Source: Pseudomonadota bacterium (GTDB lineage: Bacteria > Pseudomonadota > Gammaproteobacteria > JAADHS01). Taken from it: 43,324 bases of DNA. Under the pieces are notes generated by a model, which was given only the letters and a program-made list of their open reading frames with translations, was not told the DNA's origin and ran no database searches. Positions within the stretch are counted from its first letter, which is position 1, and each line of letters opens with the position of its first letter. The translations under genes were made by a program, and so were the position numbers. Below, piece by piece: positions 6,184-28,933 of this stretch. The stretch is from the NCBI GenBank assembly GCA_021821045.1, contig JAKACW010000034.1, positions 1-43,324 of the forward strand, written 5' to 3'.

Positions 6184-7730
6184 GCATACGCGTGCCAGGG
6201 ACGACGCCATCGTACAATCTTGCGGCGGCATTTTTTCGCCACTATGACGCGCGGCCCGACAAGGCTGCGCTGATTCTGAAGCGGGAGACGCTTACTTACC
6301 GGGAGTTGGGCGATCGTGCCCTGGGCATCGCGGCGGTGCTTCGGCGGCAGTCGGCGCGCGTCGAGCGTGTTGGCATACTCGCCTCCCGTTGCGCCGAGGC
6401 CTACGCGGGAATCCTCGCGGCCAACGTCGTCGGCGCTGCGTATGTCCCGTTCAATCCCAAGCTGCCGCTGGCGCGCCTCAAGGACATGGTGGAGAACGCG
6501 GACGTGCAGGCGCTGATTGTTCAGTCCTCGATGATGGATTCAGTGCGCAATGTCATCGCCAAGGGCGCGTCTTGTCTGGTCATTAACCCGGACTCGACCG
6601 AGTCCGCGGAGCCTATCTTAGATCTTGCCCCTCTCGCCAAAGACGACTTGGCGTACATCATCTATACCTCCGGCACCACCGGCCAACCCAAAGGCGTGAT
6701 GGTGAGCGTCGGCAACGTGCGTCAGTTCATCGATGTCATGCAGGCGCGTTACGATCTCACCGAGCGCGATCGCGTATCGCAGTTTTTCGAGATCACTTTC
6801 GATCCGTCGGTGTTCGATTTGTACATGGCATGGGAAGCGGGGGCGAGTGTGTATGTTGTTCCCGAGGAGCAGGTCATGGCGCCGGCCGACTTCATTCGCG
6901 AGCACGAGTTGACCGTTTGGTTCGCGGTGCCGTCGGCCGTGGCGATCTTGCGCCAATTGAAGCGGCTCGCCCCGAACAGCCTGCCGAGCTTGCGTCTGTC
7001 GCTGTTCGCCGGCGAGCCGCTGCCGGTTGCATCGGCACGGGCGTGGATGGCGGCGGCGCCGAACAGTCGCTTGGAAAATCTATACGGCCCGACGGAAACC
7101 ACGGTCGATTGCTTGCTGGAGCCGGTGGCCGAACCGATACGGGCGACGCCCGAACGGGATATCGTGGCCATCGGTTTGCCCTATCCCGGCACGTTGGCGG
7201 CGATCGTCGACGCGGAGCGGACGTTTTTGCCGCCGGGGCAACACGGTGAGCTTGCCATCGCCGGCGAACAGGTCGCGCTGGGGTATTGGCGCAATTCGGA
7301 GCTGACAGCGAAGCAGTTCGTTCAACTCGCGCATCCGCAGAACGGCATGCAACGCTGGTATCTGACCGGCGATCTCGCTTATCAAGACAGCGCTGGCCAT
7401 TATCACCACCTCGGCCGCATCGACAATCAAATCAAACTCATGGGCCATCGCATCGAACTGGAAGAAATCGAGACCCATTTGCGCCGCGTGTGCGGCAGGG
7501 ACACGGTGGCCGTCGTGGCGTGGCCGATGGAGGGGGGAGTCGTCAAGGGATTGATCGGCTGCGTGAGCGATTGCTCCCTCGCGCCGACGGCGATTCGCAA
7601 GATGCTGGCGGCGAGTTTGCCGGCGTACATGGTGCCCACCCAGATCATCGCCATCGAACGTATTCCGCTCACGGCGAACGGCAAGACGGACCGCAAGGCC
7701 ATCGTCGACTGGCTCGACGCGCGACCATGA
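6180..7730 (+). CDS. DltA-like amino-acid adenylation enzyme (carrier-protein ligase)
   Basis: A 516-residue stand-alone ANL-superfamily adenylation domain. Core motifs are YTSGTTGQPKG (162-172), FDPSVFDLY (207-215, resembling the DltA A4 region), LYGPTETT (301-308), YLTGDLA, GRIDNQIKLMGHRIE and the C-terminal NGKTDRK with the catalytic Lys. It should activate an amino acid with ATP and load it on the carrier protein at 9172-9417. DltA uses D-alanine, and a Cys in an FCGE motif helps select the D-form; here the corresponding stretch reads LFAGEPLP (A277), so the amino acid may differ. It overlaps both neighbours by 4 bp (ATGA), indicating translational coupling. Confidence 0.87.
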   Translation: MSIRVPGTTPSYNLAAAFFRHYDARPDKAALILKRETLTYRELGDRALGIAAVLRRQSARVERVGILASRCAEAYAGILAANVVGAAYVPFNPKLPLARLKDMVENADVQALIVQSSMMDSVRNVIAKGASCLVINPDSTESAEPILDLAPLAKDDLAYIIYTSGTTGQPKGVMVSVGNVRQFIDVMQARYDLTERDRVSQFFEITFDPSVFDLYMAWEAGASVYVVPEEQVMAPADFIREHELTVWFAVPSAVAILRQLKRLAPNSLPSLRLSLFAGEPLPVASARAWMAAAPNSRLENLYGPTETTVDCLLEPVAEPIRATPERDIVAIGLPYPGTLAAIVDAERTFLPPGQHGELAIAGEQVALGYWRNSELTAKQFVQLAHPQNGMQRWYLTGDLAYQDSAGHYHHLGRIDNQIKLMGHRIELEEIETHLRRVCGRDTVAVVAWPMEGGVVKGLIGCVSDCSLAPTAIRKMLAASLPAYMVPTQIIAIERIPLTANGKTDRKAIVDWLDARP

Positions 7731-9175
7731 GCGTGAAAATCATTCCGCCGCTGGAGCGCTACGAGTTTCTTGTTGCGGCAGCGCAGACGGTCTGGGGCAA
7801 AGCGGCGTTGCTGGCGGTTTTCTCGGCGCTGTTGTGGGTCGGCGGAAAGTCATGGTGGATGGAGTTTGGCGTGATCGCCGCGTTCACGACCTATTCTCCG
7901 ACGTGGCGGCGCGCCGTCATTCTACTCGGCACGGTGTATTGGCTGGTGAACTACACCTGGTTCGACCGCGAAGCCGCGGCGGACATTTTCATTCAGCTCG
8001 ACGTGCAAGGCGCGCTGGATTGGTGGCGCGTCTGGACTGGCGCGTTTGGCGCGGCGTTTATATATCTGGGCGCGTTCTATCTGCTGGCGTGGCGATTGCA
8101 GGAGCGGCGCATCGTGTGGCATCCGGTGGCGGCGTTTGTCGGAGTGTATGGGGCGATGCTGGCGAGTGTCGAGTTGCTACCGGTGTCCGCGGCCTGGCAG
8201 GCGAGCGCTTGGGTGTTCGTGATCGTGGTCGGCCAATACGTGTGGTTCTTTTGTTATTCGTTGATCGATTTGCAGACGGCGCGGCCCACCGCACTCTGGC
8301 GGCAAGCCGGCTTTTGGTTGCCATTTTGGCAGGGCACGGTCAACACCGCGACGCCCTTGCCCAAAGGCGCGGCCTATCTCAATCGCATCGAGGCGCAGGA
8401 TGACCGCAGCTTGGCGGTTACCCAACTCAAGGCGATCAAGCTGCTGCTGTGGGCGTTGCTGCTGAGCGGCGTGTATTGGCTGTACAAAGCGGTCGTTTAC
8501 GGTGATCCCGCGATCGGCGTGGTTTCTCTGGAGATCCCAACATTGCGCCAAGCGATCGCTGCGTCCGCGGCCGGCCGGCCCGAGTCGTGGTATGTCAACT
8601 GGACCGCCTTGCTAGCGAATTTCTTCCGCGATATTTTGCAGTTGGCGGTGTGGGGGCACATGGTCATCGCCTGCGCGCGCTTCGTCGGTTTCGCTGCCCT
8701 GCGCAACACCTATCGACCGTTGGCATCGCGCACCATTGCCGAGTTCTGGAATCGTTACTATTACTACTTCAAGGAGCTGCTGGCCGAGTGTTTCTTTTAT
8801 CCGGTGTATCTGAGGTTCTTCAAGAAGAATCCTAAACTGCGGGTGTTCGCCGCGGTGTTTGCCGCGGCCGGCGTGGGCAACTTTCTGTATCACTTTTTCC
8901 GCGATGTCGAGTACATTGCCGATCACGGATTCTGGCCGGCCTTGTATGACTTTCGGGTGTATTTGTTTTACGTTACCGTGCTGAGCGTGGGCATCGCCGT
9001 GTCCATGTTGCGTTCGCTGTCCGGCGCGGCGAGAAGTTCGTCAACAAGCGCACGCTGGCGTGGGCCGCTGACAGTGCTGAGCTTTTACGCCGTGTTGTCG
9101 ATTTTCGACGACCCGGATCGCAGTCTGTCGTTTACCGATCACGTGATTTTCGCGGGGCGTCTGGTGGGGTTATGA
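7727..9175 (+). CDS. MBOAT-like membrane acyltransferase (DltB-type)
   Basis: A 482-residue polytopic membrane protein with about ten or more hydrophobic helices. The segment around 330-400 resembles the MBOAT core of DltB and alginate O-acetylases: YRPLASRTIAEFWNRYYYY followed by GVGNFLYHFFRD, where H389 would be the catalytic His. Similarity outside this core is weak, so the family call rests on the core motif and on context between a DltA-like ligase and a carrier protein. The expected role is moving the carrier-bound aminoacyl group across the membrane to a periplasmic acceptor. ATG 7727 overlaps the upstream stop; the frame is open further upstream, but only as a shadow of the preceding gene. 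Confidence 0.75.
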   Translation: MSVKIIPPLERYEFLVAAAQTVWGKAALLAVFSALLWVGGKSWWMEFGVIAAFTTYSPTWRRAVILLGTVYWLVNYTWFDREAAADIFIQLDVQGALDWWRVWTGAFGAAFIYLGAFYLLAWRLQERRIVWHPVAAFVGVYGAMLASVELLPVSAAWQASAWVFVIVVGQYVWFFCYSLIDLQTARPTALWRQAGFWLPFWQGTVNTATPLPKGAAYLNRIEAQDDRSLAVTQLKAIKLLLWALLLSGVYWLYKAVVYGDPAIGVVSLEIPTLRQAIAASAAGRPESWYVNWTALLANFFRDILQLAVWGHMVIACARFVGFAALRNTYRPLASRTIAEFWNRYYYYFKELLAECFFYPVYLRFFKKNPKLRVFAAVFAAAGVGNFLYHFFRDVEYIADHGFWPALYDFRVYLFYVTVLSVGIAVSMLRSLSGAARSSSTSARWRGPLTVLSFYAVLSIFDDPDRSLSFTDHVIFAGRLVGL

Positions 9176-9462: not shown

Positions 9463-9957
9463 TTAGTTCAGAATGATCTCCTTCCAGGAGATGCGCTTCT
9501 GTTTGGAAATATCGATTGGCGGACAAGGCTCGCTGCCGTTGCCGCCGTCGGAGCCCGAACCGCTACCGCTCCCCGAGCCGGAACCAGAACCTGATCCGCT
9601 GCCCGATCCGGAACCACTGCCCGATCCTTTGTCGCAACCTTCGCACGAGCCTGACCCGCTCCCCTTGCCGGAACCCGATCCCGAACCGCTGCCTGACCCG
9701 CTACCTGATCCTGACCCTGATCCCGATCCGCTGCCCGGACCTGTGCCCGGACATTCGCCGCCGGGGGCGCCGCGTGAGCCGGAACCCGAACCGCTGCCCG
9801 AGCCCGATCCTGACCCCGAACCACTGCCCGATCCCGAGCCGGAGCCGCTGCCCGATCCCGATTCGCTCGCCCACACATCATGTGGCCCGACAAACGCCGC
9901 TACGCTGATGCCCAGCAGCAGCCCAAGGCAAAGTCTTATCACTCCGTCGCGCTTCAT
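9463..9957 (-). CDS. Secreted Gly-Ser-repeat protein in the minor-pilin operon
   Basis: A 164-residue protein from ATG 9957, which has AGGAG 7 bp upstream; a GTG at 9972 would add five residues and is less likely. A signal peptide (MKRDGVIRLCLGLLLGISVAAF to about residue 31) is followed by about 100 residues of nearly pure Gly-Ser dipeptide repeats. These are broken by two short Cys-bearing segments (GGECPG and SCEGCDKG). The C-terminus (EPCPPIDISKQKRISWKEI) is non-repetitive. Its ribosome-binding site abuts the pilX stop, so it is the fifth gene of the fimT-pilVWX operon, where pilY1 usually sits. It may be a flexible extracellular linker or pilus-associated protein. The DNA is an imperfect GC-rich repeat, so copy number could vary. 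Confidence 0.75.
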   Translation of the reverse strand: MKRDGVIRLCLGLLLGISVAAFVGPHDVWASESGSGSGSGSGSGSGSGSGSGSGSGSGSGSRGAPGGECPGTGPGSGSGSGSGSGSGSGSGSGSGSGKGSGSGSCEGCDKGSGSGSGSGSGSGSGSGSGSGSGSGSDGGNGSEPCPPIDISKQKRISWKEIILN

Positions 9958-9972
9958 CGGGGCACTCCTCAC

Positions 9973-19467: not shown

Positions 19468-19483
19468 TGGCACATTTTTCGCT
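19468..19483 (+). promoter_or_regulatory. Candidate sigma-54 promoter of the nasT-like gene
   Basis: TGGCACATTTTTCGCT: GG at 19469-19470 and GC at 19481-19482 are separated by exactly 10 bp, and the first half is the exact TGGCAC of RpoN promoters. One base departs from the TTGC half. The predicted start near 19494 gives a leader of about 65 nt. Two other elements of this form precede the reductase operon and nrtA. Confidence 0.6.
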
Positions 19484-19558: not shown

Positions 19559-20170
19559 ATGACCGATACGGCTCTGGTGCTGAGTCACGTCGAAGACGAG
19601 TTGTTCTTATATAAACAGCAGCTTGCCGCGCTGGGTTTCGATGTGGCGTGGTGTCCGCTGGCCATCCCGACGCGGGATCTGGGCGGCGTCGTCGCGACCG
19701 CCGCGCCGCGGGTCATCGTCGTCATTTGTTCCAAGGTAACCGAGACGATTCTGGTGCGGCTGCGCCACATCATGGCGCATTGCTGCGCGCCTCTGCTGGT
19801 GTTTACCGCCGACGACGATTCGCGAATGATCGACGAGGCGCTTCGGGCCGGGGTGGCATCTTATGTGGTGGATCCGGACGGCGCGGCGGATCGTCTGCCG
19901 GCCATCATGCGGGTGGCCGATGCGCGCTGCCGTTTGGAGCAACAGCGCAAGTTTGATCTGCTCCAAGCGCGACAATCGCTGCAGGAGCGCAAGACCATCG
20001 ACCGCGCCAAAGGGATTCTCATGGACCGCAAGGGATTGTCCGAGTTCGACGCTTACCAGCTGCTGCGCAAATCGGCGATGAACAATAACGAGAAGATCAT
20101 CGATGTCGCGCGGCGGGTGCTGTCCGTCGCAAGCCTGAGCGCCGAACGCGGCGAATCTGCACGCTCCTAG
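19559..20170 (+). CDS. nasT: NasT-like ANTAR-domain antiterminator
   Basis: A 203-residue protein from ATG 19559, preceded by GAGAAGG at 19544-19550. An N-terminal pseudo-receiver (about 1-125; VIVVICSK, LLVFTADDD) is joined by a coiled coil to a C-terminal ANTAR domain (about 140-195: ERKTIDRAKGILMDRKGLSE, then DAYQLLRKSAM). NasT/AmiR proteins bind pairs of hexaloop RNA hairpins and prevent leader termination when nitrate or nitrite is present. The very next leader (20309-20433) has exactly such hairpins and a terminator. No NasS sensor lies beside it: the only NrtA-like protein in the window (25468) carries a signal peptide. Confidence 0.9.
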   Translation: MTDTALVLSHVEDELFLYKQQLAALGFDVAWCPLAIPTRDLGGVVATAAPRVIVVICSKVTETILVRLRHIMAHCCAPLLVFTADDDSRMIDEALRAGVASYVVDPDGAADRLPAIMRVADARCRLEQQRKFDLLQARQSLQERKTIDRAKGILMDRKGLSEFDAYQLLRKSAMNNNEKIIDVARRVLSVASLSAERGESARS

Positions 20171-20189: not shown

Positions 20190-20297
20190 TGCACCATATT
20201 GCGGCTTGCTGGCGCGGTCTGCCCGTGATTCACTCCGCGAAAAATTCGAACGCACAGTGACTTAAGAATTTTCGAACCTCTTGGCACAACCTCTGCA
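20190..20297 (+). promoter_or_regulatory. Candidate sigma-54 promoter and upstream region of the reductase operon
   Basis: TGGCACAACCTCTGCA at 20282-20297 has GG (20283-20284) and GC (20295-20296) separated by 10 bp. The predicted start is near 20308, one base before the ANTAR hairpins. Upstream, TGCACC at 20190-20195 with a poor partner at 20201-20206 is a possible NtrC half-site, about 115 bp before the start. TTCGAA occurs at 20245-20250 and again at 20271-20276. RpoN/NtrC control is inferred from these elements and from the gene content. Confidence 0.65.
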
Positions 20298-20308
20298 AAG
20301 CTTACTGC

Positions 20309-20361
20309 GCAACCCAATGATGGGCTGTTAACCAACGCATAGGCGGTCATGGCCGACCGCC
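20309..20361 (+). ncRNA. ANTAR-target leader RNA (P1 and P2 hexaloop hairpins)
   Basis: P1 (20309-20328) pairs GCAACCC with GGGCTGT (one mismatch, one G-U) around the six-base loop AATGAT. P2 (20342-20361) is a perfect 7-bp stem, GGCGGTC with GACCGCC, around the six-base loop ATGGCC. Both loops have A at position 1 and G at position 4, the bases conserved in RNA targets of ANTAR proteins. The hairpins are directly followed by an intrinsic terminator and the reductase gene, and nasT lies immediately upstream, so the assignment as a NasT-controlled attenuator is strong. Confidence 0.85.
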
Positions 20362-20369
20362 ACTGGACA

Positions 20370-20433
20370 ACGGCGTCCACGCTTCGCTTCCAACCCTCCC
20401 GGATTCGGCGAAGCAGTGGACGCCGTTTTTTTT
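20370..20433 (+). terminator. Intrinsic attenuator terminator before the reductase gene
   Basis: ACGGCGTCCAC (20370-20380) pairs perfectly with GTGGACGCCGT (20416-20426), and GCTTCGC (20381-20387) pairs with GCGAAGC (20408-20414) across a single bulged base. Eight T residues (20426-20433) follow. The reductase start codon is only 10 bp beyond, so this is a leader attenuator rather than the end of a gene. NasT binding to the two upstream hairpins would be expected to allow read-through. Confidence 0.92.
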
Positions 20434-20442
20434 GGGGTACGC

Positions 20443-22497
20443 ATGCTGAGTTTGACCAAGCAGGTTGTCGAGCGATCGCTGTCGGCGAATGTGGCGCGGC
20501 GAAGTCCGTCGCCACCGGCGCAGAATCCGGCGGCGTCTCAGGACAGGCCATCGCAAACCCATCCTGTCGTCATCGTGGGCGCCGGGCCGGTGGGCATGCG
20601 GGCCGCGCAGGAACTGCTCAAGCGCGACCAACGCACACCTTTGGTTCTGTTCGGCGACGAGCCCTGGCAGCCGTACAACCGGGTGCGCCTATCCTCATTG
20701 CTGTCGGGGGAGTTGAGTTGGGCGGCGACGTTCGAGGGGCTGACCTTGGCGGCGGATGCGCGCGTTACCCAGCACTTTCACTGTCCGATTGTCGCCATCG
20801 ATCGCGACAACCGCAGCGTAACGGATGCCAAGGGAACGACCTATTCCTACTCCTACCTGATTCTGGCCACGGGGTCGCGGGCTCACATGCCCAGCATTCC
20901 GGGCATCGCGCTTACGGGCGTTTACAAGTTTCGTGATTTGAACGATGCGCAACATTTGTTGGCTCGCCGCGTGCGTACCCGAAAGACGGTAGTGATCGGC
21001 GGCGGTTTGTTGGGGTTGGAAGCCGCGCGGGCCATGCAGCGTTTCAATACCGAAGTGACCGTGATCGAGCACGCGACCCGTTTGATGAATCGTCAGCTCG
21101 ATGACGGCGCCGCCGAGCGCTTGCGCGAGCATTTGATGTCGATGGGTATGCGCATCGTTTTGCACGACTCGGTGCGGCAGGTCGTCGGTGATCAGCGCGT
21201 GCAGGGCGTCGCGTTGCTGAGCGGGCGGACGATCGAGTGCGACACCGTGGTGGTGGCCACCGGCATTGTGCCCAATGTGGAACTGGCGCTGCAGGCGCAA
21301 CTTAGCGTCGGCCGCGGCATTCGCGTCAATGACAACATGCAAACCAGCGATGAGCGGATCTTCGCCGTGGGCGAATGCGCCGAGCATCGCGGCGTGGTCT
21401 ACGGTTTAGTTGGACCGGGGTTCGAGCAAGCAGCGGTCGCCGCCCACCGCATCGCGGTTGGCCGGGCGCGTTATCAGGGCTCCATCGTCGCCGCGCGGTT
21501 GAAGGTTGTGGGCCAGCCAGTGTTTAGCATGGGGGCGGTCACCGAGGAGGCCGTTCCGCCCGAAGCGACGGCGCTCGTATTTGAGCGCACCAATGCCCAT
21601 CTCTATCGCAAATTGATTATTCGGCGCGGGCGTCTCGCCGGCGCCGTGGCACTGGGCGAGTGGGAACAGTTGGGCCGCTTGCAGGAAGCGATTACTCGTC
21701 GCCGAATCGTGTGGCCGTGGCAGCGCCGTCGTTTTCGCCGCGAGGGCGACCTGTGGCCGGCGGCTCAGCGCGACGCCATCGCCCATTGGCCCGCGGGGAC
21801 GGTGATCTGCAATTGCACCGGCGTGACGCGCGGTGCGATTTCACGGGCCATCGATGGCGGCTGCACCAGCGTGTCCGCCGTTGCGCAGTGCACTGGCGCA
21901 TCCAGTGTGTGCGGTTCGTGCCGGCCGCTGGTGGTCGAACTGCTCGGCGACAGCACCCTGTGCGAAGCGACCCGCGAGCAGAAAGCGATTTATGGGGTTT
22001 CGCTGCTGGCGTTGGCACTTGCCATGCTGACCTGCATCGTGCCCGCGATCGGCTCCCTTGACAGCGTCCAAGCGCCGATTCGCTGGGATCTGTTGTGGAC
22101 CGACGGATTGATTAAGCAGATCACCGGCTACAGTCTGCTCGGCCTGTCTGTCGTGGGCTTGGCGTTGTCGTTACGCAAGCGCATCAAACGCTTTACCTGG
22201 GGCGACGTCGCTAATTGGCAGGTGATTCACGTCGTTCTGGGCGCCGCCATCGTCGCTGCCTTTTTCGCTCATACCGGCTTCGGCCTTGGCGAGAACCTCA
22301 ATCGGGCGTTGGCGGTGGACTTCCTTGTGCTGTTGCTGGTGGGCGCACTGGGCGGAGTGCTCATTGGGTTGCAGTCGCGATTGCGCGCGGCGGTTGCCAA
22401 ACAGTGGCGCGACGGTCTGCTGTGGGCCCACATTCTGGCGTTCTGGCCGTTGCCCGTTCTGCTCGCCTTTCATATCACCGGCGTCTACTACTTTTAG
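20443..22497 (+). CDS. NirB-like flavoprotein fused to a di-haem b membrane domain
   Basis: A 684-residue protein. The N-terminal half matches the electron-input part of NirB: FAD-binding VVIVGAGPVG (42-51), NAD(P)-binding VVIGGGLLGLEAA (about 180-195) and VGECAEHRG closing the FAD site. A BFD-like [2Fe-2S] domain follows with C456, C458, C490 and C493. In NirB a sirohaem/[4Fe-4S] nitrite reductase domain comes next; here it is absent and replaced by about five membrane helices (530-684). Helices 3 and 5 each carry His pairs 14 residues apart (H596/H610 and H663/H677), the HX13H pattern of transmembrane b-haem pairs. It probably passes electrons from NAD(P)H to the periplasmic multihaem cytochrome of the next gene. 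ATG 20443 has GGGG just upstream; a GTG at 20416 lies inside the terminator and is rejected. Confidence 0.85.
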   Translation: MLSLTKQVVERSLSANVARRSPSPPAQNPAASQDRPSQTHPVVIVGAGPVGMRAAQELLKRDQRTPLVLFGDEPWQPYNRVRLSSLLSGELSWAATFEGLTLAADARVTQHFHCPIVAIDRDNRSVTDAKGTTYSYSYLILATGSRAHMPSIPGIALTGVYKFRDLNDAQHLLARRVRTRKTVVIGGGLLGLEAARAMQRFNTEVTVIEHATRLMNRQLDDGAAERLREHLMSMGMRIVLHDSVRQVVGDQRVQGVALLSGRTIECDTVVVATGIVPNVELALQAQLSVGRGIRVNDNMQTSDERIFAVGECAEHRGVVYGLVGPGFEQAAVAAHRIAVGRARYQGSIVAARLKVVGQPVFSMGAVTEEAVPPEATALVFERTNAHLYRKLIIRRGRLAGAVALGEWEQLGRLQEAITRRRIVWPWQRRRFRREGDLWPAAQRDAIAHWPAGTVICNCTGVTRGAISRAIDGGCTSVSAVAQCTGASSVCGSCRPLVVELLGDSTLCEATREQKAIYGVSLLALALAMLTCIVPAIGSLDSVQAPIRWDLLWTDGLIKQITGYSLLGLSVVGLALSLRKRIKRFTWGDVANWQVIHVVLGAAIVAAFFAHTGFGLGENLNRALAVDFLVLLLVGALGGVLIGLQSRLRAAVAKQWRDGLLWAHILAFWPLPVLLAFHITGVYYF

Positions 22498-22510
22498 GCT
22501 TGTTTGGACC

Positions 22511-23869
22511 ATGGCATCGAGCAAAGCAAAAGTGTGGGCGATGTGGATCGCGATGACGATCTTTGCCGCGACCTATCTTGGCTACGCCATGGCGGGCAAG
22601 CATCAGGCGCTCTATCTACCAGGTGCGACAACGGATGGCCATTACCAAATCGAGTTGAAATGCGAGCAATGCCATGGCGGCGGTTTCGAGGGCGGCGCGG
22701 CTTTGCAGAAAGCCTGCGTTCGATGTCACGGCGACGAACTCGCGGCGGTGGAGGACTCCCACCCGCGCAAGAAGTTCACCGACCCGCGCAATGCTGAACG
22801 GGTGTCCAAACTCGACGCGACCCTCTGCGTGACGTGCCACAGCGAACACCGGCCCCGCCACACCCGCGCCATGGGCGTGACGCTGGCCGACGACTTCTGC
22901 GTGTTCTGTCATGCCGACATCGAAGAGGACAGAAAGAGCCACAAGGACTTTGGGTTTGAAGGCTGTGCGGCGGCGGGGTGCCACAACTTTCATGACAACG
23001 AAGCGCTGTACGAAGACTTTCTGGTCAAGCACGGCGGAGACCCTGACTTGTTGGAGTCGCCGCGTGTGCCTGCGAGAGACTTTGGGGAATTCAATAGACG
23101 CGTCCATCCCGATCAAGCGATCCCGCTGTTAGCCGCGGCCAGCGACGCGCCGAGTTCGGCGGCGGAGCGGAAGATTGTGGATGACTGGGCGAAGTCGGCC
23201 CATGCCGACGGCGGGATCAACTGCAGCGGTTGTCATTCGAAAACCGAGACGGATCGAACATGGGTGGGCAAGCCGGGGCTGGATGTCTGCGCGCGCTGCC
23301 ACGAAGCGGAACAAACCGGCTTTCGCGCCGGCAAGCACGGCATGCGCCTGGCCGCCGAACTCGAACCCATGTCGCCGGTGCTTGCCCGCCTGCCCATGAA
23401 AGCGGATGTGAAAGACCAGCCCATGGGTTGCGAGACTTGTCATGGCGGTCATCGCTATGACACGGCGCGCGCAGCCGTGGATGCCTGCCTGGGTTGCCAC
23501 GACGATGACCACTCGCGGGAATACAAGAAGTCACCTCACTTCGAGTTGCCCGCGGAGGCGGCGGTCACGTGCGCAACCTGCCACTTGCCGCGCTTGGCCC
23601 ACAAGCAAGACGGCGAGCGGCGCGTGCTCGTCCAACACAATCAAAATTTCAATCTGCGGCCCAACGAAAAAATGATTCGCACCGTCTGCATGAACTGTCA
23701 TGGCCTGCGCTTTGCCATCGACGCGCTGGCCGATCCGGCGCTGATCGCCAACAACTTTCGCGGTAAGCCCAGCAAACATGTCGGGAGCATCGACATGGCG
23801 ATCGCGCGGGAGTTGAGTGGCGAAAAGGACAAGGATAGGAAAGAGCGCAGGAATGAAGAAGGCTCATGA
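22511..23869 (+). CDS. Membrane-anchored undecahaem cytochrome c
   Basis: A 452-residue protein from ATG 22511. One N-terminal hydrophobic helix (about 8-28) acts as signal or anchor; the rest is periplasmic. Eleven haem-binding motifs are seen: CXXCH at residues 51, 69, 106, 130, 238, 260, 307, 326, 354 and 393, and one CX4CH (CAAAGCH) at 152. None is CXXCK, the catalytic motif of NrfA and octahaem nitrite reductases. The chain ends in a highly charged tail. The gene follows the reductase by 13 bp. It may be an electron conduit or a new type of terminal reductase; the sequence does not decide. The haems fall in two groups (1-5 and 6-11) separated by about 80 residues. Confidence 0.85.
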   Translation: MASSKAKVWAMWIAMTIFAATYLGYAMAGKHQALYLPGATTDGHYQIELKCEQCHGGGFEGGAALQKACVRCHGDELAAVEDSHPRKKFTDPRNAERVSKLDATLCVTCHSEHRPRHTRAMGVTLADDFCVFCHADIEEDRKSHKDFGFEGCAAAGCHNFHDNEALYEDFLVKHGGDPDLLESPRVPARDFGEFNRRVHPDQAIPLLAAASDAPSSAAERKIVDDWAKSAHADGGINCSGCHSKTETDRTWVGKPGLDVCARCHEAEQTGFRAGKHGMRLAAELEPMSPVLARLPMKADVKDQPMGCETCHGGHRYDTARAAVDACLGCHDDDHSREYKKSPHFELPAEAAVTCATCHLPRLAHKQDGERRVLVQHNQNFNLRPNEKMIRTVCMNCHGLRFAIDALADPALIANNFRGKPSKHVGSIDMAIARELSGEKDKDRKERRNEEGS

Positions 23870-23883
23870 GCAAAAAAGAAGTT

Positions 23884-23944
23884 GTGGGAGCGGATCATTC
23901 CGCGATCGAGTCGGGCGAAGAATCGCGGAATGATCCGCTCCCAC
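23884..23944. repeat. REP-like inverted pair (BIME)
   Basis: Two oppositely oriented copies (GTGGGAGCGG... and ...CCGCTCCCAC) flank a 14-bp centre and can form a long hairpin. The pair lies between the multihaem cytochrome and the haem lipoprotein genes inside the putative operon, where it could set 3' ends and relative mRNA levels. Confidence 0.88.
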
Positions 23945-23988
23945 AGTGCATGCGATCAATATTTTCTAACAGAAGAGGAGTAGCAACG

Positions 23989-24573
23989 ATGAAAAACAAA
24001 GCAGTGCTAATGGGCGCAGTTCTCAGCGTCGGATCGGTCGGCGCGATCCTTGGCGGATGCTCCGAGACCACGGCCAAGAGCGGCGGCTTGAATCCGCAGA
24101 GTGTGGCCGATTCGATTCATGCCGTTCTGGAGTCGGATCGAACTGTCTACACCAAGTTCGTGGTCAATCGCCTGGTCAAGGAGGAGAAGGTCATCAAAGC
24201 CAGCGAACATTGGAAAGACGACAAAGCCCTGCCGCTGCCGGCGCAGATGTTCCGCATGGGGGCGGAGGCCGTGGCCGAGAAGAACGCAGGGTTCAGCTAC
24301 TCGCTGTTGTCGCTGTGGCCCATCAACAAACAGAACGAGCCGAAAACCGAAGCGGAAAAGAGCGGTTTGAAGTTCATCGCCGAAAACCCCGGCCAGAACT
24401 TCTACACCGAGGAAGAACTGGGCGGCAAGAAATACTACACCGCGGTCTACCCCGATATGGCTATCGCCCCGGCCTGCGTCGAGTGCCACAACGACCACAA
24501 AGACACGCCCAAGAGCGATTTCAAAATCGGGGACGTCATGGGCGGCGTGGTGATTCGATTGCCGATGAGTTAA
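23989..24573 (+). CDS. Haem lipoprotein with Tll0287-like (DUF3365) domain
   Basis: A 194-residue protein from ATG 23989, with a strong AGAAGAGGAG ribosome site at 23971-23980. An open frame from 23866 includes the REP pair and is not coding. The lipobox LGGC places the lipidated Cys at about residue 24. A single CXXCH (CVECH, followed by NDHK) lies near the end. The body (LLSLWPINKQN, FTYTEEEL-like region, GGVVIRLPMS) matches the DUF3365/Tll0287-like haem domain, which has been linked to redox or signalling roles. Being in the nitrogen-oxide cluster, it may carry electrons to or from the 11-haem protein, or sense redox or NO; the function is unproven. Confidence 0.82.
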   Translation: MKNKAVLMGAVLSVGSVGAILGGCSETTAKSGGLNPQSVADSIHAVLESDRTVYTKFVVNRLVKEEKVIKASEHWKDDKALPLPAQMFRMGAEAVAEKNAGFSYSLLSLWPINKQNEPKTEAEKSGLKFIAENPGQNFYTEEELGGKKYYTAVYPDMAIAPACVECHNDHKDTPKSDFKIGDVMGGVVIRLPMS

Positions 24574-24606
24574 TGGATTTTGATCGAGTCGAATCGCGGA
24601 ATTCAT

Positions 24607-24685
24607 GTGGGAGCGGTTTCCTACCGCGATTCTTGGCCGGACGTGCAGAGTGGCCCGGTCACATCGCGGAATGATCCGCTCCCAC
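24607..24685. repeat. REP-like inverted pair (mixed types)
   Basis: A TTTCCTA-type copy at 24607-24631 faces an ATCATT-type copy ending at 24685, with about 29 bp between. It lies between the haem lipoprotein and globin genes. Confidence 0.87.
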
Positions 24686-24712
24686 AATTTTCAATCAAAC
24701 GGAGAGAAAACA

Positions 24713-25132
24713 ATGACACCTGAACAAGTAGCACTGATCAAATCAAGTTTCGCCAAGGTCGAACCCATCGCCGACACCGCCGCCGCGATATTCTATGGCC
24801 GCCTGTTCGCGCTGGATCCGGAACTCAAACCGCTGTTCAAGGGCGACATGGTCGAGCAAGGCCGCAAGCTGATGCGCATGATTGGCACCGCCGTGCGCGG
24901 GCTCGACGACTTGCCGGCCATCGTGCCCGCGGTGCAGGATCTGGGCCGGCGGCACGTTCGCTATGGTGTGAAGGACGAGCACTACGACACGGTCGGGGCG
25001 GCGTTGATCTGGACACTGGAACAAGGCTTGGGCGAGGACTTCACGCCGGCGACCAAGACAGCGTGGGTCGACGTGTATACCGTTTTGGCGACGACCATGA
25101 AGGACGCCGCGGCCAAGCAGCAAGCGGCTTAA
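24713..25132 (+). CDS. Single-domain globin
   Basis: A 139-residue protein from ATG 24713, with GGAGAG upstream at 24701-24706. It has the globin fold pattern of bacterial single-domain haemoglobins: MTPEQVALIKSSFAKV at the A helix, IFYGRLFALDPELKPLFKGD in the B-C region, LGRRHVRYGVKDEHYDTVG with the proximal His of the F helix, and LIWTLEQGLGEDFTP in the G helix. There is no reductase domain, so it is not a flavohaemoglobin. In a nitrate/nitrite cluster the likely role is binding or oxidising NO leaked during nitrite reduction, or oxygen handling. Confidence 0.9.
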   Translation: MTPEQVALIKSSFAKVEPIADTAAAIFYGRLFALDPELKPLFKGDMVEQGRKLMRMIGTAVRGLDDLPAIVPAVQDLGRRHVRYGVKDEHYDTVGAALIWTLEQGLGEDFTPATKTAWVDVYTVLATTMKDAAAKQQAA

Positions 25133-25338: not shown

Positions 25339-25354
25339 TGGCACGCCAAGTGCT
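25339..25354 (+). promoter_or_regulatory. Candidate sigma-54 promoter of the nitrate transporter operon
   Basis: TGGCACGCCAAGTGCT: GG at 25340-25341 and GC at 25352-25353 are 10 bp apart, with an exact TGGCAC. The predicted start near 25365 gives a leader of about 100 nt. Unlike the reductase leader it shows no hexaloop pair or terminator. GGTGCA at 25217-25222 is a possible NtrC half-site about 145 bp upstream. Confidence 0.6.
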
Positions 25355-25467
25355 ACTTATGAATTGAGACGAAGCTTTCGTGCCTGCCGAGAACCCAAAG
25401 CGGTTCGAATAAGGTGCGCGGCGGATTCACTTTGAACGAGAAAACGACACAACAGGCGGAGTTACTT

Positions 25468-26844
25468 ATGCAGAATCTTTTGGTATCGATGTCATTGCGG
25501 GCAAAGGTTGGCTTGGCAGCGGCGTTAGTACTGGCATCCACGAGCGCGCTCGCTGAGATCGGCCCCCCCGAGAAGGAAGATCTCAAATTCGGCTTCATCA
25601 AACTTACCGACATGGCGCCCTTGGCGATTGCCTACGAGAAAGGCTACTTCGAAGACGAAGGTCTGTTTGTCAGCCTCGAAGCGCAGGCGAATTGGAAAGT
25701 GCTGCTCGATCGCGTTATAGACGGCGAACTGGACGGCGCCCACATGTTGGCGGGGCAGCCTTTGGGCGCGACCATCGGCTTCGGCACCCAGGCCCACGTC
25801 GTTACCGCTTTCAGCATGGATCTCAACGGCAACGGCATCACCGTCGCCAAGAGCGTGTGGGATGAAATGAAAAAGCACGTCCCCATGGAAAACGGCAAGC
25901 CGGTGCATCCGGTAAAAGCCGATGCGCTCAAGCCGGTGGTGGAAAAATATCGCAAAGAAGGCAAAGCGTTCAACATGGGCATGGTGTTCCCCGTGTCGAC
26001 TCACAATTATGAGCTGCGCTACTGGCTGGCCGCGGGCGGCATCAACCCGGGATTTTACGCTCCGGCCAAGGGCGACATCACCGGACAGCTCAAAGCCGAT
26101 GTATTGCTCAGCGTAACGCCGCCGCCCCAAATGCCCTCCACCTTGGAAGCCGGAACCATTCTTGGTTACTGCGTTGGAGAGCCGTGGAATCAGCAGGCGG
26201 TATTTAAAGGGATCGGCGTGCCCGTCATCACCGACTACGAGATCTGGAAGAACAACCCGGAGAAAGTATTCGGTGTCAGCAGCGACTGGGCGAAGAAATA
26301 TCCCAACACCCACATTCGCGTCGTCAAGGCGCTGATTCGCGCCGCTTACTGGTTGGACGAGAACAGCAACAAGAATCGCCCGGAGGCGGTGAAGATTCTC
26401 GCCAAGAGCCAGTACGTGGGCGCCGACTACGACGTCATCGCCAACAGCATGACCGGAACCTTCGAGTACGAGAAGGGCGACAAGCGGGAGGTGCCGGATT
26501 TCAACGTGTTCTTCCGCTACAACGCGACCTATCCCTACTACAGCGATGCGATTTGGTATCTGACGCAGATGCGCCGCTGGGGTCAGATCGCCGAACAGAA
26601 GCCGGACGACTGGTACAAGGAAACGGCGAAGAAAGTCTACCGGCCGGACATTTACGCCGCCGCCGCGAAGGAGTTGATCGCAGAAGGTAAATTCAAAGCA
26701 AGCGACTTCCCCGACTTCGCCACCGAGACCGGCTATCGAGCTCCCCAGTCCGAGTTCATCGATGGCGTGACCTACGACGGAACAAAACCCAATGAGTATC
26801 TGGAGAAGTTCTCCATTGGGTTGAAAGGTAAGGAAACGATTTAA
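25468..26844 (+). CDS. nrtA: Nitrate ABC transporter substrate-binding protein (NrtA-type)
   Basis: A 458-residue protein from ATG 25468, with GGAG 6 bp upstream. The signal peptide (about 1-29, ending ASTSALA-E) shows it is periplasmic. The fold resembles NrtA/CmpA/SsuA proteins: [22 protein letters not shown], the ligand-pocket region [20 protein letters not shown], and [12 protein letters not shown], typical of nitrate or bicarbonate binders. The downstream permease and ATPase genes, and the nasT control of the neighbouring operon, favour nitrate/nitrite over bicarbonate, taurine or cyanate. It is not NasS, which has no signal peptide. Confidence 0.88.
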
Positions 26845-26861
26845 TTGGAATCGCAAATGTT

Positions 26862-26922
26862 GTGGGAGCGGATTATTCCGCGATTGGGCTGGCGAAGAAT
26901 CGCGGTAGGAAACCGCTCCCAC
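26862..26922. repeat. REP-like inverted pair between nrtA and nrtB
   Basis: An ATTATT-type copy faces a TTTCCTA-type copy. The element separates the binding-protein gene from the permease gene and ends 18 bp before the nrtB start. Such hairpins can protect the upstream mRNA, which fits a need for excess binding protein. Confidence 0.87.
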
Positions 26923-26939
26923 AAAGAAAGGTGAAGTTT

Positions 26940-27959
26940 ATGAATTCTCAAACAGCAACCATACCGAAAGCCGGCGATCTGGCGCGCAACTGGATCTCCA
27001 AGTGGTTAGCCGACAGCAACCCCGTCGCAACGCTAAAAGATATGAGCTTCAATCTCGGCGTTCCCTTGCTCGCCCTGGTGGCCTTCTGTCTGTTGTGGGC
27101 GGGCGTGGCCTCGAAGGTCCAAACGTCGCTCGGACAATTGCCCGGCCCCACCATGGTATGGGGTCAGGCGATGACGCTGTATCAGGAACACAAAGCGGAG
27201 CGCGAGAAGGAAGCGGCTTTCTATGAGCGCCAAGAGCAGCGCAATGCGGAAAAGCTCGCCGCCGATCCCAACGCCGACGTGAAGATCCGACCCTACACCG
27301 GCAAGCCGACCTTTATCGATCAAATCAAGACCAGCTTGTTTACGGTCGCGACGGGCTTTCTGCTGGCGGCGTTGATCGCCATTCCGGTCGGCATCGTGTG
27401 CGGGCTCAACAGCGGACTGTATCGGGCTTTCAACCCGCTGATTCAGATCTTCAAGCCGGTTTCGCCGCTGGCCTGGCTGCCCATTGTCACCATGGTGGTC
27501 AGCGCGCTGTATGTGTCGGACGATCCGATGTTTTCCAAGTCGTACCTCAACTCCGCCATCACCGTGATGCTGTGCTGCGTGTGGCCGACCATCATCAACA
27601 CCACGGTGGGCGTGGCGTCGGTGGACAAAGATCTGCTGAACGTCAGTCGCGTGCTGCGTTTGAGCTGGTTCACCAATGTCATCAAGATCGTCATTCCGTC
27701 GGCGATTCCCATGATATTCACCGGGCTGCGGGTGTCGCTCGGCATCGGCTGGATGGTGCTCATCGCGGCGGAAATGCTGGCCCAGAACCCCGGCCTCGGC
27801 AAGTTCGTGTGGGATGAGTTTCAGAACGGCAGCTCCGATTCGTTGGCCCGCATCATGGCGGCGGTGTTCACCATCGGCATCATCGGTTTCTTACTCGACC
27901 GCATCATGCTCGGCATTCAACGCTGGGTAAGTTGGGATAAAGCGGCGAACTTGCGTTAG
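26940..27959 (+). CDS. nrtB: Nitrate ABC transporter permease (NrtB-type)
   Basis: A 339-residue inner-membrane protein from ATG 26940; the frame is open upstream only through the REP pair. After one N-terminal helix (about 37-57) there is a charged, coiled periplasmic segment (EHKAEREKEAAFYERQEQRN), then a BPD-type permease domain with about five helices. The EAA-type loop is VDKDLLNVSRVLRLSWFTNVIK followed by IPSAIPMIFTGLRVSLG. The family is that of NrtB/CmpB/SsuC. It forms the channel with the ATPase encoded downstream. Confidence 0.9.
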   Translation: MNSQTATIPKAGDLARNWISKWLADSNPVATLKDMSFNLGVPLLALVAFCLLWAGVASKVQTSLGQLPGPTMVWGQAMTLYQEHKAEREKEAAFYERQEQRNAEKLAADPNADVKIRPYTGKPTFIDQIKTSLFTVATGFLLAALIAIPVGIVCGLNSGLYRAFNPLIQIFKPVSPLAWLPIVTMVVSALYVSDDPMFSKSYLNSAITVMLCCVWPTIINTTVGVASVDKDLLNVSRVLRLSWFTNVIKIVIPSAIPMIFTGLRVSLGIGWMVLIAAEMLAQNPGLGKFVWDEFQNGSSDSLARIMAAVFTIGIIGFLLDRIMLGIQRWVSWDKAANLR

Positions 27960-27990
27960 ACGTGGACAAGGGTAAACAACTGTGACAACG

Positions 27991-28014
27991 AATCGCGGAA
28001 TAATCCGCTCCCAC
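27991..28014. repeat. REP-like palindrome (single) between nrtB and nrtD
   Basis: A single copy (AATCGCGG...CCGCTCCCAC) lies in the 86-bp gap between permease and ATPase genes. It is the fourth REP-type element within the nitrogen-oxide island. Confidence 0.85.
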
Positions 28015-28045
28015 AATGGATCGCGATTCTTTCTGAGGACTTAGC

Positions 28046-28933
28046 ATGACAACCGACAACTATCTCGAACTCAGCCAAGTTGCCATTACCTTCCCCACGC
28101 CGAAGGGGCCGTTTCTCGCCTTGCAGGACGTGAATCTCAAAATCGCCAAGGGCGAGTTTATTTCCGTCATCGGCCATTCCGGTTGCGGCAAATCGACTGT
28201 TCTGAATATTGTGGCGGGCTTGCACCAAGCGACCACGGGCGGCGTGATTCTCGAAGGCAAGGAAGTCACCGAGCCCGGCCCCGACCGAGCGGTGGTGTTT
28301 CAAAATCACTCGCTGCTGCCGTGGCTGACCGCTTATGAAAACGTCGAACTGGCAGTTAAGCGCGTCTTCGGCAAGAAGAAATCCAAGCAGGAAATCGCCC
28401 AGTGGGTCGAACACAATCTTGGTTTGGTGCACATGGAACACGCCATGCACAAACGGCCCCACGAGATTTCAGGCGGGATGAAGCAGCGCGTCGGCATTGC
28501 GCGGGCGCTGGCCATGGAGCCCAAGGTGCTGCTGATGGACGAGCCTTTTGGCGCATTGGATGCCCTGACCCGGGCCCACATGCAGGACTCGCTGATGGAA
28601 ATCCAGAATCGCCTGAACAACACGGTGATCATGGTGACCCACGACGTCGACGAGGCGGTGTTGCTCTCCGATCGCATTGTCATGATGAACCAAGGTCCGG
28701 GCGCCACCATCGGCGAGATTCTCAAAATCGATCTGCCGCGACCGCGGGATCGGGTCACTCTGGCCGAGACGCCGGAATACAACCACTACCGCGCGGCGGT
28801 GCTGCAGTTTCTGTATGCGAAAAAGCACGCGTCCGCCAAGCCAGCGGTCAAGAGCGAAGCGGTTGAGGAAACGGCCGAGCCGGAGCCGGGGTTGGTGTCG
28901 TTGGAGGAGCACAAGAAGAAGAAATTCGGCTGA
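28046..28933 (+). CDS. nrtD: Nitrate ABC transporter ATP-binding protein (NrtD-type)
   Basis: A 295-residue ABC ATPase. Walker A GHSGCGKST (43-51), Q-loop VFQNHSLLPW, signature ISGGMKQR, Walker B VLLMDEPFGALD and H-loop VTHDVDEA are all intact. The last 45 residues (KKHASAKPAVKSEAVEETAEPE and beyond) are a charged tail not needed for the ATPase fold. It is of the NrtD/SsuB/TauB family and energises uptake with the preceding permease. GAGGAC before ATG 28046 can serve as ribosome site. Confidence 0.92.
   Translation: MTTDNYLELSQVAITFPTPKGPFLALQDVNLKIAKGEFISVIGHSGCGKSTVLNIVAGLHQATTGGVILEGKEVTEPGPDRAVVFQNHSLLPWLTAYENVELAVKRVFGKKKSKQEIAQWVEHNLGLVHMEHAMHKRPHEISGGMKQRVGIARALAMEPKVLLMDEPFGALDALTRAHMQDSLMEIQNRLNNTVIMVTHDVDEAVLLSDRIVMMNQGPGATIGEILKIDLPRPRDRVTLAETPEYNHYRAAVLQFLYAKKHASAKPAVKSEAVEETAEPEPGLVSLEEHKKKKFG

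Follow-up and report, generated by a model that had tools for sequence, protein, structure and literature searches.

What controls a flavoprotein gene whose short upstream region, lying behind a nasT-like gene, holds several hairpins and a terminator? The question is raised by a contig of a Pseudomonadota bacterium (GCA_021821045.1, contig JAKACW010000034.1), of which a stretch of 43,324 nt, here called the window, was analyzed. An original prediction had placed an ANTAR RNA attenuator at this position, starting at a sigma-54-type promoter. That outline has stood, with nasT adjoining and genes for both RpoN and NtrC present; the pair of hairpins assigned to the switch has not, a further hairpin (H3) having been overlooked. 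The leader is most probably a NasT-type (ANTAR) transcription attenuator at a sigma-54 promoter, a reading to which we assign a probability of about 0.8.

The gene cluster behind nasT

The genes concerned are all on the forward strand; the coordinates given for the cytochrome, Tll0287-like and globin genes are those of open frames.

19559 to 20170 (+): nasT-like gene with a divergent receiver-like N-terminus and an ANTAR domain (Pfam ANTAR, 71.2 bits); alternative start GTG 19523
20443 to 22497 (+): controlled gene, a NirB-N-terminal-like FAD/NAD(P) oxidoreductase with a BFD [2Fe-2S] domain and a hydrophobic C-terminal part, without a siroheme domain
22286 to 23869 (+): multihaem cytochrome c; true start further in
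23866 to 24573 (+): Tll0287-like protein (Pfam, 74.7 bits)
24605 to 25132 (+): globin (Pfam, 65.5 bits)
25414 to 28933 (+): NrtA-, NrtB- and NrtC-like ABC transporter genes (25414-26844, 26862-27959 and 28046-28933), possibly with a separate sigma-54-like promoter at 25339

The position of nasT immediately upstream thus agrees with the original prediction, its start being ATG 19559 or GTG 19523 and its stop 20170. The flavoprotein aligns to positions 1-480 of the 794 of NirB only, and the siroheme domain is absent. Matches to PF01077 in this genome fall on other contigs only, including one in a cluster identified by eye as nasA-nirB; none of this kind of leader was seen in the stretches of that cluster that were read. 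Relatives of the flavoprotein were gathered at 15 loci, 14 of them with readable upstream sequence, and five more came from 56 genomes, the window being excluded. The cytochrome and the Tll0287-like gene lie 3' of the flavoprotein gene at 14 of the 15 loci, the exception L024 being truncated, and a globin gene is present at 11; the cytochrome carries ten CXXCH motifs in most relatives counted. We infer that the cluster may move electrons from NADH to periplasmic haems.

Two further features of the window were recorded. A 22-bp sequence, TGGGAGCGGTTTCCTACCGCGA, occurs in five exact copies (0.01 expected) and also on other contigs of the genome; it is a dispersed REP-like repeat, in part forming a regular array. 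An open frame at 9463-9972 on the reverse strand has a signal-peptide-like start and long runs of Gly-Ser dipeptides.

92-113, 175-196, 258-279 and 26900-26921 (-): TGGGAGCGGTTTCCTACCGCGA, exact match
24608-24629 (+): TGGGAGCGGTTTCCTACCGCGA, exact match

Hairpins and terminator of the leader

ANTAR target sites, as described in the accessible parts of two reports, consist of an upstream hexaloop hairpin, P1, and a second, P2, that is embedded in a terminator, P2 and the terminator being mutually exclusive (PMC3369931; PMC8934654). The leader contains the following elements.

20281 to 20296 (+): sigma-54-type -24/-12 box TTGGCACAACCTCTGC, predicted start at about 20308
20309 to 20328 (+): hairpin H1, loop AATGAT, core CCC-AATGAT-GGG at 20313-20324; likely P1
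20342 to 20361 (+): hairpin H2, GGCGGTC-ATGGCC-GACCGCC, without overlap with the terminator; spacer hairpin or alternative P1
20364 to 20379 (+): hairpin H3, TGGAC-AACGGC-GTCCA, nested in the 5' arm of the terminator; P2 antiterminator hairpin
20369 to 20433 (+): intrinsic terminator (20369-20425) with T8 (20426-20433), ending 9 nt before ATG 20443

The two predicted hexaloop hairpins with A1 and G4 in their loops, AATGAT and ATGGCC, are present as H1 and H2, and H3 carries the same two bases. The predicted terminator with eight T before the reductase gene is likewise there, with a stem of 12 bp (two of which are A-U pairs with the T tract), a bulged A and 7 bp; a simple terminator scan had skipped it, as loops were allowed up to 8 only. 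The loop and 3' arm of H3 form the start of the terminator 5' arm, and the 3' arm of the terminator pairs with 11 of the 11 bases tested. Nested in this way, H3 and the terminator are mutually exclusive, and such nesting of P2, the defining trait of attenuating ANTAR targets, is an argument for an attenuator. H1 and H2 make no contact with the terminator and by themselves could not bring about antitermination. In the version that takes these two as the dual hairpin, NasS-NasT would report nitrate or nitrite; both exist with A1/G4 loops, but the overlap belongs to H3, for which reason the pairing was rejected. NasS was not found in the genome, and the version as a whole is very improbable. The hairpin to mutate is accordingly H3.

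Folded in isolation, the terminator comes to -36.1 kcal/mol and H3 to -5.6 kcal/mol. The terminator being so much the stabler, termination would be the default and H3 would need help to form. The whole leader folds at -62.5 kcal/mol compared with -44.3 kcal/mol in shuffles, beating 200 of 200 (z -5.0), an excess due mostly to the terminator, since the part with H1 and H2 alone is unexceptional (z -1.6, with 16 of 200 shuffles as good).

H1 is favored as P1, and the original assignment of that role to H1 may be right, because it begins at the predicted +1, like P1 in several relatives, and because its loop has A in second position (T in H2); in the P1 and P2 loops seen, this position is mostly A or G. 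H2 would then be a spacer, an extra hairpin or an alternative P1. In one relative (L011) P1 is the second hairpin, which speaks against settling on H1. Measured from H2 to H3, the linker between the two hairpins of the site is 2 nt; measured from H1, it is interrupted by H2. It varies widely among relatives, and in the window it counts against the attenuator.

A hexaloop nested in a terminator is found in 15 of the 19 readable leaders of flavoprotein relatives: ten of 14 in the first set (L011, L013, L015, L016, L017, L019, L021, L022, L023 and L024) and all five of the second (L091-L095), L091 having a stem of 3 bp that was read by eye. L017, L021 and L025 are near-duplicates and so not independent. 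The arrangement is absent from the leaders of L012, L018 and L020. The L014 leader (7557-7760) has a series of four A1/G4 hexaloop hairpins and then a terminator, with no canonical P2.

How rare such nesting is elsewhere was estimated from 407,625 bases, both strands, where 18 of 176 terminator-like sites have an A1/G4 hexaloop with a stem of 4 bp or more nested in them. Nine of the 18 are flavoprotein leaders, including that of the window, and five precede nrtA-like genes or belong to a nasT/P11 locus (L077), leaving four of the 162 remaining sites, which are taken as the background because the loci had been chosen for holding such genes. The frequency among relatives, set against four of 162 unrelated sites, supports the attenuator. 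It also bears on whether this might be a plain terminator behind nasT with coincidental hexaloops: the terminator is strong and the folds of H1 and H2 do not exceed chance, as that account would have it, but distant relatives keep both the nested P2 and its sequence, and such nesting is rare elsewhere, which makes mere coincidence highly unlikely.

Pairing was also counted across 25 leaders (15 flavoprotein and 10 P11-like), with L012, L014, L018, L020 and L091 falling below threshold or having no site. Pairing is kept in 98 of the 100 cells for P2 and in 254 of the 275 for the terminator, both sides of the stems showing changes, a result that none of 2000 shuffles reached but that holds partly by construction, the script having demanded three P2 pairs and the best terminator register; in L013 and L091 it took the upstream hairpin rather than P2. 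A MAFFT alignment of nine leaders (the L019 row cut at a wrong start) brought P2 and the T tract into register and left P1 unaligned. The P2 core GACAAMGGYGTC, used with one mismatch as a genome probe, proved unspecific (270 sites, 144 for the reversed pattern), and its 30 loci were left out of further use.

Predicted promoter, regulators and the proposed NasT reader

The spacing rule for -24/-12 elements places the start predicted from TTGGCACAACCTCTGC at about 20308, one base before H1, as had been claimed. Within the window the box alone matches TGGCAYN5YTGC exactly, but 0.48 are expected and 41 of 100 shuffles contain one, so a single box by itself is weak evidence, and this chance level is to be set against the attenuator. 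What evidence there is for sigma-54 initiation comes from recurrence, a box standing upstream in 12 of 15 leader-bearing relatives (by a loose pattern, that of L019 picked by eye). The genome encodes RpoN (Sigma54_DBD, 238.7 bits) and NtrC (ntrC equivalog, 767.3 bits; cut-off 558.6), in support of the proposed control. No convincing NtrC site was found, matches near the leader having three mismatches (20158 and 20190) and the window holding 19 against 28 expected, which weighs on the other side.

The switch could be real and the box incidental, transcription arriving from nasT or another promoter. The leaders of L091, L093 and L094, which directly follow an ANTAR gene and before which no box was found, are of this kind, and chance alone would give the window a box in roughly half of cases. 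The recurrence among relatives argues against it, as does the failure to find a sigma-70-like promoter on this strand between 18000 and 29100, and we consider an incidental box unlikely. Two near-boxes, each with one mismatch to TGGCAYN5YTGC, lie on the forward strand before nasT (TGGCACATTTTTCGC, 19468-19482) and before nrtA (TGGCACGCCAAGTGC, 25339-25353); both are intergenic, on the correct strand and where such promoters would be useful, the total in the window (17 found, 14 expected) being at chance level.

For an attenuator at a sigma-54 promoter, the following course of events can be proposed. Under nitrogen limitation, phosphorylated NtrC and RpoN would start transcription near 20308. 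By default the RNA would fold the terminator and transcription would stop at T8, just before the reductase gene. NasT would bind A1/G4 hexaloops, that of H1 (perhaps H2) as P1 and that of H3 as P2, and by holding H3 would prevent the terminator, so that polymerase could enter the flavoprotein, cytochrome and globin cluster.

The NasT encoded in the window gives no receiver match in Pfam. Counted on an alignment, it keeps eight of the 11 RNA-contacting residues of EutV that are named in the accessible text of PMC8934654 (Arg142, Lys143, Lys149, Glu160, Tyr164, Arg168, Met172 and Asn173), the changes being Lys147 to Arg, Arg175 to Asn and Arg177 to Lys. Adjoining the leader with these contacts largely kept, nasT supports the attenuator. 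So does its distribution: a NasT-like gene is present in nine of ten genomes of leader-bearing relatives and in one of four of leader-less relatives (one-sided Fisher p 0.04). When any ANTAR gene is counted, the figures are nine of ten and two of four (one-sided Fisher p 0.18), which counts against it, as does L017 (8886-8992), where the leader is complete but the genome yielded no ANTAR gene. In L021, nearly a duplicate of it, leader and ANTAR gene are both present, and either an incomplete assembly or loss of the reader could account for the difference. Another contig of the window's genome (L026) carries two adjacent response-regulator-ANTAR genes (7289-7891 and 8407-9039) and no PF13379 gene.

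NasS was sought with the protein beside nasT in a P11 genome (L077), named by PF13379 and position. None was found in the window's genome (assembly 98.46% complete), where the top match is the NrtA of the operon (37%; with an apparent signal peptide, judged by eye) and others reach 22-24%; this too tells against the attenuator. Among 14 relatives, NasS-like proteins of 51-55% identity occur in G274, G284 and G286 only, and a NIT-ANTAR protein of the NasR type in G280 and G285. The leader thus occurs together with NasS-NasT (L011, L016 and L021), with NasR (L019 and L024), or with NasT where NasS was not found (the window, L013, L015 and L023; L022 is uncertain, its best match being 38%). Where a genome has NasS, its NasT carries a DSPxRD-like motif close to the former phosphorylation site; the motif is altered in the NasS-less ones, in a small sample read by eye, and L022 retains it.

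The original prediction of a nitrate/nitrite layer is therefore plausible but unproven for this genome, no NasS having been found there. NasT seems to work without NasS, and what it senses becomes directly testable. Searches for published papers on this operon and on orphan NasT returned nothing on point, by which the print record is not exhausted.

Relation to P11, NalA and other ANTAR systems

Against the Rfam family P11 (RF00625) the window scores 35.4 bits (E 3.6e-6), below the gathering score of 70, and the match is the sole one in its genome (E 7.7e-6 in the genome search). The uniqueness of this distant match favors the attenuator and the missed gathering score disfavors it; the leader appears to be a distant relative of P11 and is not filed as a member. 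An Rfam scan of the window at gathering scores gave two tRNAs only. P11 was matched at E <=0.01 in 12 of 274 genomes of the class, the window's own included; one passes the gathering score and one (L040) looks like chance. The P11-like loci have GGAC-AAAGGC-GTCC or a close variant nested in a terminator, those read on the forward strand have a box upstream, and the P11 sequence of L029 has three A1/G4 hairpins, like the window. P11 was first described as a small RNA acting in trans, and by similarity the terminated leader might be one too; what is conserved is the overlap between terminator and antiterminator, immediately ahead of the gene, and such a role seems remote. We take the NalA leader of Pseudomonas nirBD to be P11.

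If the attenuator is accepted, the leader ties an uncharacterized cluster of flavoprotein, decaheme cytochrome and globin genes to nitrogen control. More tentatively, and with rather less than even odds, one conserved sigma-54/ANTAR leader may guard an undescribed electron-transfer module (NirB-like flavoprotein with a membrane part, decaheme cytochrome, Tll0287-like protein and globin) across beta- and gammaproteobacteria, its reader having been exchanged (NasS-NasT, NasR, or, in the window, a NasS-less NasT with an altered receiver and another signal). On this view the module would constitute a nitrogen-oxide pathway of its own, distinct from the cell's nasA-nirB genes.

Control of the Paracoccus nas genes by NasS-NasT, to the extent covered by the available part of PMC5424462, differs in that no NasS was found here and that the nasA and nirB of this genome are at another place, where the stretches checked hold no leader of the type; the two have in common an ANTAR protein like NasT and control by nitrogen status via NtrC. 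Linkers of 5-12 nt separate P1 and P2 in eut genes, and both shortening and lengthening of the linker harm induction at EutV targets, according to the accessible parts of PMC3369931 and PMC8934654. The linker in the window lies outside that range or is broken by a hairpin, and the NasT receiver is by its sequence not of the phosphorylated kind, unlike that of EutV; the A1/G4 hexaloops and a P2 nested in the terminator are shared with the EutV leaders described there.

The combination of sigma-54/NtrC initiation with subsequent antitermination by NasT has already been published for NalA of Pseudomonas nirBD, as set out in the available portion of PMC12830290. New here are the genes that the leader precedes, a NirB-like flavoprotein, decaheme cytochrome, Tll0287-like and globin cluster with no siroheme nitrite-reductase domain, and a genome with NasT, RpoN and NtrC where NasS was not found, which raises the question of the sensor. 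The window leader differs from NalA/P11 in its score below gathering, in the operon that follows and in this missing NasS; it has in common with NalA/P11 the box, the upstream A1/G4 hairpins and GGAC-AAMGGC-GTCC nested in the terminator.
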